Below, piece by piece: positions 10,542-31,098 of a stretch of 32,497 nucleotides of DNA (positions within the stretch are counted from its first letter, which is position 1; each line of letters begins with the position of its first letter). Under the pieces are notes generated by a model that was not told the origin of the DNA, did not search any database, and saw only the letters and a list, made by a program, of their open reading frames with translations. A program made the translations under genes and the position numbers. Source of the DNA: Candidatus Desulfosporosinus infrequens (GTDB taxonomy: Bacteria; Bacillota; Desulfitobacteriia; Desulfitobacteriales; Desulfitobacteriaceae); contig OMOF01000246.1 of the NCBI GenBank assembly GCA_900290375.1, forward strand, positions 1 to 32,497, given 5' to 3'.

Positions 10542-10644
10542 GTTGCAAATCCTACGTTGGCATACTATAATTACTCTCAAGTATAATTTTTCACTTTAAA
10601 AGTCCGAAGAGATCTTATTTGTCTTGAAGCCAAGAAAAGGAGGG

Positions 10645-10735
10645 TAGTACGGTAGGATGGAACTAACTTTTAGGATTGAAGAATGGTGGGACGGTTTCTA
10701 AACAAAACAAAGACACCTGAAAGGTGTCTTTTTAT
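10645..10735 (+). promoter_or_regulatory. Leader of hutP: TAG/TAGGATNG motifs followed by intrinsic terminator
   Basis: TAGGATGG at 10653 and TAGGATTG at 10671 precede the terminator AGACACCT-gaa-AGGTGTCT-TTTTT (10711-10734). Confidence 0.5.
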
Positions 10736-10838
10736 ACTAGTAGGTCTTCATGTCGCTATACGGAACTACTGATGAATGTTAATAAGCTATTTTCACCCTT
10801 GACCAGCGCATCAGTATAACTTAGGGGAAAGGAAGAAC

Positions 10839-11261
10839 GTGATAATGGCACAAAGCAAGAAAATTGCACTCGCTGCCTTAAAGATGGCTATGACAGAGAG
10901 CCGAGAAGAAGAGACTCATTTAAAAGAGTCATATTTGCGGCTGGGAATTAAAACCGCAGCGGTAGATTACGGTGGAGAGTACATCAGTTCAATCCGAAAG
11001 ATTGTAGAACGTGCTATTGTCGCAGCCAAACGCGAAGGGGCCATCCAAGAGACACATGGGGATGAAGGGGCAGTTGCTGGCGCCACTCGTGAGGCGCTAA
11101 GTCAAATTATGAACAAAGCTATAGGTTTGAATATCGGCGGAAAGATTGGAATCGCACGTCAGGACGATCATTTAAGCGTTGCGATCTTTTTTGGAATCGG
11201 TCTATTACATTTGGATGAGGTAGCTGTGGGCTTGGGACATCGGGTTGCTCCTAAAGAATAA
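10839..11261 (+). CDS. hutP: HutP-family RNA-binding antiterminator-like protein
   Basis: Similar in layout to HutP, with a C-terminal half DHLSVAIFFGIGLLHLDEVAVGLGHRV resembling the HutP ending (...GVGINHI). Family call from memory. Confidence 0.8.
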   Translation: MIMAQSKKIALAALKMAMTESREEETHLKESYLRLGIKTAAVDYGGEYISSIRKIVERAIVAAKREGAIQETHGDEGAVAGATREALSQIMNKAIGLNIGGKIGIARQDDHLSVAIFFGIGLLHLDEVAVGLGHRVAPKE

Positions 11262-11273
11262 AGGGGGTAGAAC

Positions 11274-11642
11274 ATGGTAAGAGGAATTCGAGGTGCGACA
11301 ACGGTAGAGAATAATGATGCCGAGGAGATTCGAATAGCGACTCAAGAACTGTTGCAGCTGATTCTGTCTGAAAATCAGCTTAGCACAGAAGACCTGGTCA
11401 GTGCCATTTTTACTGTTACTTCGGATTTGAACGCAGATTTTCCTGCGTCTAGTGCACGCGGCATAGGTTGGCAGTTGGTACCACTACTTTGTGCGACGGA
11501 AATTCCAGTGCCCGGTGCACTTCCGCGTTGCGTTCGAGTGCTATTGCACGTTAATACGACACGAAATCAAAAAGAAATCCGGCATATCTTTTTACGCAAT
11601 GCCGCTTCATTGCGTAAAGATCTTGTTGATTCCGATACTTAA
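11274..11642 (+). CDS. aroH: Monofunctional chorismate mutase (AroH type)
   Basis: [55 protein letters not shown]. Confidence 0.94.
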
Positions 11643-11888
11643 GAAGTAGGGATTGTGAGACTTTTTAATCGTGATTAGGGGTTGTGAGGACAGTCCTTTA
11701 TATGGTAAGATGGTTTAAATTTTAAATTTGGCTGATGGATTAAAAGCTTTGTTTGGCAAAGCTTATGTAGGATGGTGTCAGTGGGTTTGTCGAGGTGCTT
11801 CGCTTAGAAGGACTTGCCAAAGATAAGTAGGATAGTAGGATGGGAGCGATTAAAAGTTATGGCACCCTCTATTTAGGGTGCCTTTTTG
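11643..11888 (+). promoter_or_regulatory. Putative RNA leader upstream of aroF with direct repeats, hairpin and intrinsic terminator
   Basis: TAGGGATTGTGAG (11647) and TAGGGGTTGTGAG (11676); hairpin AAGCTTTG/CAAAGCTT (11744-11764); TAGGATGG (11768), TAGGATAG (11828), TAGGATGG (11836); terminator GGCACCCT/AGGGTGCC-TTTTT (11861-11887). Confidence 0.5.
11861..11887 (+). terminator. Intrinsic terminator between aroH and aroF
   Basis: Perfect 8-bp stem GGCACCCT/AGGGTGCC followed by TTTTT. Confidence 0.85.
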
Positions 11889-11999
11889 CATCCAAGTTGG
11901 AAATTGAAGAGTGACCTTGCGAGACAAGGGGCTTGGAGCATTGAATATTTTAGAAACTTGTACGAAACAATGTAGTATGGTAGAAAGGGGTCGGAGAGA

Positions 12000-13028
12000 A
12001 TGATTATCGTTTTAAAAATGGGTTCGACGGTAGAGCAGATTGAAGAAGTTTCCACACGGTTAACTGAAGGGGGTTTCAAAGTACATCTGTCCCAAGGGGT
12101 AGAGAAAACAATCATGGGGGCTATTGGGGATCGGATGCGGATTGAAGCGCTTGATTTAGAAGCGTTGCCTTGGGTAGAAAAAGTTGTGCCTATTCTAGCA
12201 CCGTATAAATTGGTCAGTCGCGAGTTTCATCCTGCGGATACTATTATCCGTGTTGGAGGACATGAAATTGGAGGAAATACGGTCCACGTTATGGCAGGAC
12301 CTTGTGCGGTTGAAAGTCGAGCACAGATCTTGGAAACTGCCCATGCTGTGCGCGAGGCTGGGGCAACTTTTTTACGTGGCGGAGCCTTTAAGCCACGAAC
12401 TTCTCCCTATTCTTTCCAGGGGCTGGAGGAAGAAGGATTACGCTATTTGGCAGAAGCCCGTGCTGAAACGGGACTTTTAGTGATAACAGAGGTTATTGAT
12501 GCGCAGGACGTTTCTTTGGTGGCGGATTATGCGGATGTTCTCCAAATCGGCGCTCGGAACATGCAGAACTTCGTTCTACTCAAAGAAGTAGCCAAGTGCG
12601 GAAAACCTGTCCTTCTCAAAAGAGGGCCGTCTGCAACCTTAGAGGAATGGATGATGGCGGCAGAATATATTATGGCTGGAGGGAATTACCAAGTAATGTT
12701 CTGCGAACGGGGTATCCGAACCTTCGAAACTTATACGCGGAATACGCTCGATTTGAGCATGGTACCTGCTCTGCATGCCCTTTCACACTTACCAGTCATT
12801 ATTGACCCTAGTCATGGAACTGGGCGGTGGCAACTGGTTCATCCTATGGCGAAAGCGGCTTTGGCTGCTGGAGCTGATGGCCTGATTGTCGAAGTTCATC
12901 CGCATCCAGAAAAGGCCGTTTCAGACGGAAAACAGTCCTTAACGCCTGAAAAGTTCCAAGTTATGATGGCTGATTTGGCAAGGCTTACTTCCGTTCTAGA
13001 TCGTAAATTGGGGGAAGTGAAATCGTGA
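12000..13028 (+). CDS. aroF: 3-deoxy-7-phosphoheptulonate (DAHP) synthase, AroF/AroG-type with N-terminal ferredoxin-like domain
   Basis: MAGPCAVESRAQILETA, GGAFKPRTSPYSFQG, QIGARNMQNF, VIIDPSHGTGR. AGAAAGGGG RBS. Confidence 0.95.
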   Translation: MIIVLKMGSTVEQIEEVSTRLTEGGFKVHLSQGVEKTIMGAIGDRMRIEALDLEALPWVEKVVPILAPYKLVSREFHPADTIIRVGGHEIGGNTVHVMAGPCAVESRAQILETAHAVREAGATFLRGGAFKPRTSPYSFQGLEEEGLRYLAEARAETGLLVITEVIDAQDVSLVADYADVLQIGARNMQNFVLLKEVAKCGKPVLLKRGPSATLEEWMMAAEYIMAGGNYQVMFCERGIRTFETYTRNTLDLSMVPALHALSHLPVIIDPSHGTGRWQLVHPMAKAALAAGADGLIVEVHPHPEKAVSDGKQSLTPEKFQVMMADLARLTSVLDRKLGEVKS

Positions 13029-13927
13029 TAGATGGTCCAGAAGGGATTTTAACGCCTGGATGGTCAGGCCTTCGCATTCCGAAGGCCTGCATCTTCGGCT
13101 TGGGACTGATCGGCGGGTCATGGGCCGGTGCTTTGCATCAGATGGGATGGGAGGTTTTTGCGGTTGATCCGGAGAGGTCGAGTATTGATGAAGCTGTATG
13201 TAGGGGATGGATTCAGGCAGGCTGGACAGAAATGCCAGCGTTTCTGGAGGTGGATTTGGTCGTTCTAGCTCTACCCCTTAAAGAGTTGGCGAATGGATAT
13301 GATCAATTAATGGGCAGAATTTCCAAGGGGACGGTTGTTACCGATGTAGGAAGTATAAAAACAGAGATTTGCAATAAATCGCAAAGAGATGTCCAAACGC
13401 ATTCTCGTGACTTTTATTTTGTAGGCGGTCACCCTATGGCAGGTTCGGAACAGTCTGGGTTTGGGGTCGCGGACCCTGATCTTTTTAGGGGGTATCCCTA
13501 TGTCTTAACTCCTGCAACTGATTGCCCGCAACAAGTAGTTCAAAAGCTCGTAGAAATCGTTCAAGGGTTTGGAGCCAAAGTCGTGTTTCGAGAGCCTGTT
13601 AAACATGATGTAGAAGTGGCAATGGTTAGCCATATCCCTCATTTGCTAGCGGTAGCGCTAACCTTAGCTACGCAGGATGCTTCCAAGGAGGGGGAATCGG
13701 CCCTAGAATTAGCCGGACGGAGTTTCCGCGATTTGACGCGTATTGCAGACAGTTCTCCCGAGATGTGGAAGGAAATTATGGTGAGGAATGCCGAGGCAAT
13801 TCTTGACGGGCTTACCTTTTGGGAACGAAGAATAAAGGAACTAAAGGAGTGCATTCAGCAGGGAGAGGGAGAGGAGATCGCCTCAGCGTTTCGCAAGGCA
13901 CATGAGGTTCGGAGATTCATCAATTAG
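13025..13927 (+). CDS. tyrA: Prephenate dehydrogenase
   Basis: FGLGLIGGSWAGAL Rossmann motif, TDVGSIKTEI, GGHPMAGSEQSGF. GTG start overlaps the aroF stop. Confidence 0.94.
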   Translation: MIDGPEGILTPGWSGLRIPKACIFGLGLIGGSWAGALHQMGWEVFAVDPERSSIDEAVCRGWIQAGWTEMPAFLEVDLVVLALPLKELANGYDQLMGRISKGTVVTDVGSIKTEICNKSQRDVQTHSRDFYFVGGHPMAGSEQSGFGVADPDLFRGYPYVLTPATDCPQQVVQKLVEIVQGFGAKVVFREPVKHDVEVAMVSHIPHLLAVALTLATQDASKEGESALELAGRSFRDLTRIADSSPEMWKEIMVRNAEAILDGLTFWERRIKELKECIQQGEGEEIASAFRKAHEVRRFIN

Positions 13928-13979: not shown

Positions 13980-15266
13980 ATGCGAGGCGTGTTTATTAAG
14001 CCAGTCTCCGGTGTCAAAGGAGAAATTAGAGTCCCTGGTGATAAATCCATTTCCCATCGGGCGGCTCTCCTAGGCGGGATGGCTCATGGAGAAACCCATG
14101 TCTCGAATTTTCTATTAGGCCAGGACTGTTTAAGTACGCTTCAGTGTTTAAAACAACTGGGGGTCGCCTGGGAGAGACAGGGAACGGAAGTTTGGATTCG
14201 AGGCGAGGGGATGGAAGCCTGGCAGGAACCGACGGACGTACTTGATGCTGGTAATTCAGGGACGACGTCTCGGTTGATGCTTGGGGCATTGGCTGGTAGT
14301 CCTTTCTCTGTAACATTCACTGGAGACGAGTCCCTTCGATCTCGCCCAATGCGGCGTGTCACCGACCCACTCAAGCAGATGGGTGCCCAAATTATGGGTC
14401 GGCAAGGTGGTAATCTATTTCCGCTCACGATGAGCGGTGGTCAGCTGCAAGGACAGGCGTTTCGAACAGTCGTGGCCTCAGCCCAAGTAAAATCAGCTAT
14501 TATCCTGGCAGGGGTGAGAGCGAATGGAGAAACGAAAGTGGAGGAACCGGCTCTTTCTAGAGATCATACTGAACGAATGCTCAGGGGGTTCGGTATCGAG
14601 GTACTCAGCGATAAAACCGAGGTAAGAGTTAAGGGCGGTGGCCGCCTTATTGGGCAAGATGTTTCGGTACCCGGAGACATTTCGTCGGCAGCTTTCTTTC
14701 TTATCTTAGGAAGTTTGGTTGGACGTGGAGAACTTATCCTGCCGAATGTTGGGGTAAACCCGACGCGTACCGGAATATTGGACGCCCTCAGAGCTATGGG
14801 GGCGGATATCGAATTGCTCGATGTTTCGGAAGTCTGTGGTGAGCCTAGGGCAACGTTGCGTGTTCGTCCCGCGCGACTTAAAGGGATCGAAATTGGAGGG
14901 GATATGATTCCGCGTCTAATTGATGAAATCCCGATTTTGGCTGTGGCCGCATGCCTAGCCGAAGGAGAAACTGTCATTCGGGATGCCGCAGAACTGCGGG
15001 TCAAGGAAACCGACCGCATCCGTTCGGTAGCGGAGGGATTAACCGCCTTGGGAGCCAAAGTTGAAGAACTTCCCGATGGGTTGCGCATTCAGGGTCAACC
15101 GTCCTTGCGGGGTGGACAAGCAAGTAGCCTAGGAGATCATCGGTTGGCTATGGCCTGGGCCATCGCTGGTATGTTATCTAAAGAAGGCGTCAGCGTGGAA
15201 GACTTAGAGGCAGCAGATGTATCCTATCCGGATTTTTTGGCCGTGCTTGAGAAGGTAGCTCAATGA
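13980..15266 (+). CDS. aroA: 3-phosphoshikimate 1-carboxyvinyltransferase (EPSP synthase)
   Basis: VPGDKSISHRAALLGG, LDAGNSGTTSRLMLGALAG, RVKETDRIRSVAEGL, DHRLAMAWAIAG. Confidence 0.97.
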   Translation: MRGVFIKPVSGVKGEIRVPGDKSISHRAALLGGMAHGETHVSNFLLGQDCLSTLQCLKQLGVAWERQGTEVWIRGEGMEAWQEPTDVLDAGNSGTTSRLMLGALAGSPFSVTFTGDESLRSRPMRRVTDPLKQMGAQIMGRQGGNLFPLTMSGGQLQGQAFRTVVASAQVKSAIILAGVRANGETKVEEPALSRDHTERMLRGFGIEVLSDKTEVRVKGGGRLIGQDVSVPGDISSAAFFLILGSLVGRGELILPNVGVNPTRTGILDALRAMGADIELLDVSEVCGEPRATLRVRPARLKGIEIGGDMIPRLIDEIPILAVAACLAEGETVIRDAAELRVKETDRIRSVAEGLTALGAKVEELPDGLRIQGQPSLRGGQASSLGDHRLAMAWAIAGMLSKEGVSVEDLEAADVSYPDFLAVLEKVAQ

Positions 15267-30492: not shown

Positions 30493-30570
30493 CTTTAGGT
30501 TCCGTTTTACCCACTATGACAAAACTGACATACTCCGCTATCTTCCGAGTTTGCGCTCGAATTAGTGTTC

Positions 30571-30600
30571 TTGCCAAACTCGTGCGGATTAGCTTATAAT
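30571..30600 (+). promoter_or_regulatory. Sigma-A-like promoter of the ACT-domain gene
   Basis: TTGCCA - 18 nt - TATAAT ending at 30600. Confidence 0.6.
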
Positions 30601-30651
30601 ATGTCTGAACATTTAGACGGAATGATCGAGGAGAGAGATAGGGGCGATTGG

Positions 30652-31098
30652 GTGGTTGACAAGACAAACGATTTTTTAATTGTCAGTAAAAATATATTGC
30701 CGGAAGCCATCTTGAAGACTGCTAAGGCAAAAGAATTACTTGTCAAAGGGGATGTCTATACTATCAATGATGCTGTGGAACGTGTAGGGCTTAGCCGAAG
30801 TGCCTATTATAAATATAAGGACGGCGTGTTCCCTTTTTACGAGGCAAGCAGGGAAAAGATCATTACGATTTCGCTCATTCTCGAAAATAAAGCGGGAGTA
30901 CTCTCTCACGTTCTTAATTTCATTGCCTCAGTCAAAGGCAACGTTCTAACCATTAATCAGGGAATTCCACTGCAAGGAATTGCTAATGTCTCGCTTTCCA
31001 TTGAAACAGCAGGAATGGCAGATACCCCCGAAAATCTTTTGTTTGGTCTGGCAGAAATCAATGGGGTAAGAAAGATAGAAGTAATTGGACAAACTTAG
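30652..31098 (+). CDS. pheB: ACT-domain protein, PheB family
   Basis: DKTNDFLIVSKNILPEAILKTAKAKELL...VGLSRSAYYKYKDGVFPFYE...ISLILENKAGVLSHVLNFIA. TATAAT abuts ATG 30601, so GTG 30652 (AGGGG RBS) is the likelier start. Confidence 0.85.
   Translation: MVDKTNDFLIVSKNILPEAILKTAKAKELLVKGDVYTINDAVERVGLSRSAYYKYKDGVFPFYEASREKIITISLILENKAGVLSHVLNFIASVKGNVLTINQGIPLQGIANVSLSIETAGMADTPENLLFGLAEINGVRKIEVIGQT

Follow-up and report, generated by a model that had tools for sequence, protein, structure and literature searches.

A repeated 8-nt RNA motif precedes aroF across a bacterial phylum and co-occurs with a specialised HutP relative

Results

Throughout the phylum, a hitherto unlisted RNA motif, present in repeats, stands upstream of aroF and co-occurs with a specialised relative of HutP, referred to here as HutP-A. 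The conserved unit, defined by comparing species within and then beyond the genus, is the octamer NAGNAYGG, usually in directly adjoining copies that recur at intervals of exactly 8 nt. We consider it likely, with a probability of roughly 80%, that HutP-A, as an RNA-binding protein of the HutP family, regulates aroF and its own operon; it would act through these 8-nt NAG repeats by controlling termination and, probably, the translation of aroF.

The hutP-A–aroH–aroF locus

The window, i.e. the whole 32,497-nt stretch of Candidatus Desulfosporosinus infrequens DNA that was analysed, carries the following genes:

10839..11261, + strand: hutP-A, HutP-family protein with an altered ligand site (PF09021; likely start ATG 10845)
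11274..11642, + strand: aroH, monofunctional chorismate mutase (TIGR01796, 151 bits against a cut-off of 82)
12000..13028, + strand: aroF, DAHP synthase (TIGR01361, 409 bits against a cut-off of 268)
13025..13927, + strand: tyrA, prephenate dehydrogenase (NCBIfam prephenate dehydrogenase models, at most 207 bits, scores below the equivalog cut-offs)
13980..15266, + strand: aroA, 3-phosphoshikimate 1-carboxyvinyltransferase (TIGR01356, 419 bits against a cut-off of 287)

The aroH gene lies 12 nt downstream of hutP-A and is co-directional with it. A preliminary description of this DNA had assigned the gene between the two leaders to the HutP family, in agreement with its Pfam match (PF09021, E 3.4e-50, 170 bits against a cut-off of 25). 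The same description reported that hut genes were absent; this holds within the window, while the host genome also contains two HutP paralogs scoring like the nif type, one of which adjoins nifI/nifH, and congeners of the host carry a genuine hutP–hutH pair. At 30565-31098 the window encodes an ACT-domain protein (PRK04435 family, 193 bits), possibly another amino-acid-sensing regulator.

HutP binds RNA as a hexamer, together with L-histidine and Mg2+. On its AlphaFold model (pLDDT 84), HutP-A has the HutP fold, the ten best PDB matches being all HutP structures (Foldseek; best E 1.3e-7, probability 1.00, TM 0.70) and no other structure matching well. The protein is 67-98% identical across the collected relatives, and in most of them, across many orders, hutP-A is followed by aroH and often next by aroF or trpE; its linkage is thus to aroH, aroF or trpE, and not to hutH or other hut genes. 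We aligned HutP-A with the paralogs HutP-B and HutP-C, numbering residues according to the solved B. subtilis HutP sequence. At His73, His77 and His138, which we take to hold Mg2+ and L-histidine in the B. subtilis protein, HutP-A has G, G and E, and HutP-B and HutP-C of the same clade have H, H and H. Since the histidine-Mg2+ site is lost in HutP-A, its effector is probably not histidine. In addition, HutP-A shows V, K and D at Thr56, Thr99 and Glu137, presumably RNA contacts in B. subtilis HutP; taken at the level of the alignment, these substitutions count against HutP-A reading the octamers.

Two leaders with NAG octamers and terminators

The elements of the hutP leader are:

10543..10571, + strand: promoter of the hutP–aroH transcript, TTGCAA / 17-nt spacer / TATAAT (consensus scan, 10 of 12 matches)
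10637..10660, + strand: NAG cluster I, AAGGAGGG TAGTACGG TAGGATGG (three NAG units, 8-nt period)
10671..10694, + strand: NAG cluster II, TAGGATTG AAGAATGG TGGGACGG (8-nt period)
10709..10733, + strand: intrinsic terminator, AAAGACACCTGAAAGGTGTCTTTTT (sequence and fold)

Those of the aroF leader are:

11682..11711, + strand: probable aroF promoter, TTGTGA / 18-nt spacer / TAAGAT (sequence)
11744..11764, + strand: conserved hairpin AAGCTTTG-TTTGG-CAAAGCTT, located 5' of aroF octamer 1 (folded)
11768..11775, + strand: octamer 1, TAGGATGG, nearly invariant in 16 Desulfosporosinus leaders
11820..11851, + strand: NAG cluster, AAGATAAG TAGGATAG TAGGATGG GAGCGATT (central pair conserved)
11842..11847, + strand: GGGAGC, possible 5' strand of an antiterminator, complementary to the terminator GCACCC bar one mismatch
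11861..11887, + strand: intrinsic terminator, GGCACCCTCTATTTAGGGTGCC TTTTT (fold; conserved in the alignment of 16 leaders)
11973..11988, + strand: octamer pair TAGTATGG TAGAAAGG over the aroF ribosome-binding region

Both promoter stretches, TTGCAA...TACTATAAT for hutP–aroH and TTGTGAGGA...GGTAAGAT for aroF, are found again in congeners. In cluster I the NAG units start at 10637, 10645 and 10653, and the last two octamers are kept in congeners; in cluster II the kept part is AAGAATGG-TGGGAYGG, its third unit being UGG rather than NAG. Terminators occur at the same place in the hutP leader of relatives. In the aroF leader, NAG is found at 11820, 11828, 11836 and 11844, again with an 8-nt period, and 9 nt separate the end of the cluster from the terminator stem. 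In an alignment of 16 aroF leaders from Desulfosporosinus, the hairpin, whose core is invariant, is kept, as are octamer 1, the tandem pair, GGGNGC and the terminator, the spacers between these conserved parts varying in length and sequence. A counterpart of octamer 1 is found across the phylum; Desulfosporosinus, other genera of the family and Desulforamulus also have an octamer some 20-50 nt upstream of the aroF start.

The preliminary description had named five octamers and two terminators, all of which are present in place; it had missed TAGTACGG (10645), AAGAATGG (10679), TGGGACGG (10687) and TAGTATGG TAGAAAGG (11973-11988). Its own pattern, TAGGATNG, is at background, with 412 occurrences genome-wide against 430 for the reversed control and no enrichment in the window (6 against 3.6 expected), and we therefore replaced it. 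Once the unit is corrected to NAGNAYGG with period 8, its conservation in relatives extends far beyond the genus. Each leader contains three NAGNAYGG octamers. Dinucleotide shuffles of the hutP leader gave a mean of 0.08, with 0 of 2000 reaching three and 0 of 2000 producing a period-8 pair; for the aroF leader the mean was 0.20, three octamers were reached in 6 of 2000 shuffles and a period-8 pair in 4 of 2000.

Spacing, strand and position of the octamers

The 8-nt period prevails where octamers follow one another: a spacing of 8 nt was counted in 28 cases, and every other spacing in at most two. Half of the tandem sites (21 of 42) have a third NAG at +16, compared to a background of 6.5%, so that the aroF cluster often comprises three NAG units. 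This is also the size of the known HutP cluster (PMC7430163).

The octamers lie on the sense strand, mostly between promoter and terminator and sometimes over the ribosome site. In a set of 64 HutP-A loci, the majority of which came from other genera, every one of the 22 tandem sites was on the gene strand. More than half of these sites preceded aroF and belonged to clades like Pelotomaculum and Desulforamulus. The hutP leaders of clades of this type are without octamers, their tandem sites preceding aroF instead; octamers near hutP are absent in some HutP-A genomes (Moorella, several Pelotomaculum). At least one sense octamer precedes 27 of the 32 aroF genes located near hutP-A, with a total of four on the antisense strand. 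As control for single octamers we took the antisense strand; the octamer is similar to its own reversal, which inflates counts of the reversed pattern.

In Desulforamulus and Pelotomaculum, the octamers lie directly next to the Shine-Dalgarno sequence of an ORF of six or seven codons, Trp, Phe or Tyr among them, and in their aroF leaders the stop of the short ORF lies at the terminator. Short ORFs between the octamers and the terminator (MRLWSV, MSNWLK, MFFLGIA, MSIFGRF, MSYFSD and MSLWPG) are candidate leader peptides; the aroF leaders with such ORFs are L151, L164, L171, L174, L175, L176, L178, L182 and L188.

Association of the octamers with HutP-A

We compared aroF leaders of genomes with and without HutP-A, the aroF genes having been found by protein search, separately from the scan for the tandem pattern. 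Specifically, at least two octamers were present in 22 of 27 HutP-A-positive genomes of different genera (63 sense and 3 antisense octamers overall), compared to 1 of 24 HutP-negative genomes (4 sense, 0 antisense). The corresponding Fisher p of 1.4e-8 is only a guide, because the test ignores kinship: the species cannot be treated as independent, and HutP-A-positive and HutP-negative genomes differ phylogenetically and in aroF similarity. The same contrast is seen again in many families. Two octamers at aroF are absent in 5 of the 27 HutP-A-positive genomes, and one HutP-less aroF leader (L215) has a tandem pair.

A phylum sample of 300 genomes gave a comparable picture. The exact tandem pattern was matched 123 times against 55 for the control in the 169 HutP-A-like genomes, and 15 times against 29 in the 102 HutP-less genomes. 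Within HutP-A genomes, 38 of 107 tandem matches fell within 12 kb of hutP-A, where about 0.9 would be expected, and all 38 were on the hutP-A strand. The proposal, already made in the preliminary description, that these leaders are read by the HutP homologue is supported by octamers that track hutP-A in position, strand and presence or absence.

The paralogs HutP-B and HutP-C as internal controls

Relatives carry up to three types of HutP. HutP-C is the hutH-linked paralog and precedes hutH (NCBIfam, 722 bits). In the HutP-C/hutH leader, 63 NAG pairs are spaced by 7 nt and 7 by 8 nt, with a terminator after them; a 7-nt NAG spacing followed by a terminator is the textbook HutP arrangement. The caveat originally attached to the UAG spacing was well placed: in the same genus, genuine hutH leaders have a 7-nt period, compared to 8 nt here. 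The hutH leader of Acididesulfobacillus (L052:4660-5347), unlike the short one of Desulfosporosinus, contains about five copies of a repeat of about 20 nt, AAGGATTNGTANGAYRGGTT.

HutP-B keeps all three histidines and precedes nifI and nifH or the ammonium transporter gene amt. In its leaders, NAG repeats form long arrays whose spacing peaks at 8 nt (101, with 58.9 in shuffles; z 6.4), and no Rfam match was found for these leaders. A strongly conserved hairpin, GGGCACCAAATC...GATTTGGAGCGG, and a terminator were also seen in the HutP-B leader, and downstream of the HutP-B gene nifI1/nifH or amt comes next (L046, L047, L049, L195-L214). These arrays suggest that HutP-B possibly exerts a HutP-type RNA control of nitrogen fixation.

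The chief reason for thinking that HutP-A reads the octamers is that every HutP branch comes with a NAG-repeat leader of its own. More broadly, we find it fairly probable that HutP is the founder of a modular RNA-reading family with at least three branches in this phylum, which would recognise 7-nt repeats at hutH, 8-nt NAGNAYGG repeats at aroF and 8-nt arrays at nifI/nifH/amt, with changed effectors and an aromatic branch devoid of the Mg2+-histidine site.

Discussion

Taken together, we infer that HutP-A is the reader of the octamers, that it exerts feedback repression on aroF and that it controls its own gene. HutP-A would have been diverted from histidine degradation to the synthesis of aromatic amino acids, reading runs of NAGNAYGG in the aroF leader RNA and, in many genomes, also in its own hutP–aroH leader. 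Bound just upstream of, or over, a switch sequence, it would choose between terminator and read-through, and the octamer pair at the aroF ribosome site may provide a second, translational step of repression. When an aromatic amino acid or an intermediate of the pathway is present, HutP-A binding would favour termination and block aroF translation. Since aroH is the fixed neighbour of hutP-A, the effector would most likely be a late intermediate or an aromatic amino acid.

Pairing partners for such a switch are visible in several genera. In Desulfosporosinus, GGGNGC after the last octamer is pairable with GCACCC of the terminator bar one mismatch; in a related genus (L053, L054), ACGGTG of the last octamer is pairable with CACCGT; in Pelotomaculum, GGGGAGG is pairable with CCTCC. 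By analogy with TRAP, a protein sitting on the octamers would block the antiterminator and favour termination. The antiterminator is thus a candidate only, GGGNGC and GC(A/G)CCC being too conserved for covariation and the N not pairing. In Desulforamulus and Pelotomaculum, HutP-A could act by blocking translation of the leader ORF.

The octamers could be a real RNA element with another reader, be it an RNA-binding protein or the ribosome, hutP-A being merely a neighbour in the regulon. We judge this rather unlikely, since aroF leaders of HutP-less genomes lose the octamers, the paralog-linked leaders likewise have NAG repeats and HutP is known to read NAG-triplet clusters (PMC7430163); it would fit the several HutP-A genomes lacking octamers near hutP, and the short Trp/Phe/Tyr ORFs adjoining octamers in Desulforamulus and Pelotomaculum, where attenuation by the ribosome may contribute. 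The aroF leader also has a conserved hairpin and conserved unpaired stretches, and in one leader TAGGATGGTACC resembles part of the T-box sequence, as if a metabolite riboswitch or T-box made the leader itself sense the effector. The resemblance is confined to that leader (L011) and not conserved, and we dismissed it. The covariance search proposed at the outset returned no Rfam family, T-box included, at the gathering threshold or at E up to 10, one chance match aside; moreover, the conserved parts are short repeats with spacers variable in length and sequence, and the folding energy is not unusual, all of which makes a riboswitch or T-box very improbable. With z-scores of -0.5 to -1.2, a stable conserved fold of the whole leader was rejected as well; such ordinary folding is as expected for a single-stranded protein site, yet is no evidence for one.

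A transcription factor binding the octamers as DNA operators is, in our estimate, very unlikely too. Direct repeats can be DNA sites, and computation cannot fully separate DNA from RNA, but the 8-nt period mismatches the DNA helical repeat, and the sites lie downstream of the promoter in a fixed sense (63 to 3), just before terminators or at ribosome sites. This placement, after the promoter, before the terminator or over the ribosome site and sense-oriented, argues for RNA. The strand bias, the exact period and the HutP association contradict chance or shared ancestry of unconstrained sequence, as does the retention of octamers across many families while the spacers between them diverge; although TAGGATNG itself is at background, we give this explanation practically no weight. 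CsrA sites, whose core is ANGGA, were discarded, octamer variants like TAGTACGG, AAGAATGG and CAGAACGG being without GGA.

HutP-family proteins that read NAG repeats ahead of a terminator are known in principle, and control of aroF by HutP-A would follow this scheme; what appears to be new is the HutP-A branch, with its spacing, its targets and the loss of the histidine site. The system shares with B. subtilis HutP and its hut leader the protein family and fold, as well as NAG repeats clustered near an intrinsic terminator. It differs in the period, 7 nt there (units 4 nt apart) and 8 nt within NAGNAYGG here, in having G, G and E in place of the ligand-site histidines, in a linkage to aromatic synthesis, not to the breakdown of histidine, and in octamers that also overlap the aroF ribosome-binding region. 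In outline it would resemble TRAP and the trp leader, where a pathway regulator reads (G/U)AG triplets and may block an antiterminator or a ribosome site. TRAP is a different protein, reading about 11 triplets spaced by 2-3 nt (PMC7430163), compared to a HutP protein and 3-4 NAG units with an 8-nt period here. T-box leaders likewise combine leader RNA and terminator before an amino acid biosynthesis operon, but the aroF and hutP leaders are without an Rfam T-box match; in Rfam release 15 no family matches the octamer leaders. Our literature search, which was short on subscription papers, found no work joining HutP with chorismate mutase or nitrogen fixation. Arrays of GAG/UAG resembling TRAP sites, a few nt apart and before a terminator, occur downstream of aroH in L043, L057 and L058, preceding trpE in the last two.

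If HutP-A does read the octamers, aromatic amino acid synthesis would be under an RNA regulon, so far unlisted, in much of the phylum, with sulfate reducers, acetogens and syntrophs among its carriers, and the sister HutP would point to RNA-level control of nitrogen fixation. The HutP paralogs would then represent a natural series with differing spacing rules and pockets, making the change of triplet spacing and effector in a hexameric RNA-binding protein directly testable.

Octamers are also found at transporter genes, so that the regulon may extend beyond the aro genes. In about ten species of Desulfosporosinus, tandem octamers lie over the start region of the gene for a branched-chain-type ABC transporter binding protein; in L098, L100, L104, L106 and L111 they cover its start codon, and the N-terminus MVRMVG is encoded by the octamer-like ATGGTTAGAATGGTAGG. 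Tandem octamers were likewise seen in this genus upstream of an SSS-family sodium:solute symporter gene (L101, L109) and of a lactate-permease-like gene (L099, L114), and in L114 three of them in tandem are followed by a terminator containing a sequence complementary to the octamers.
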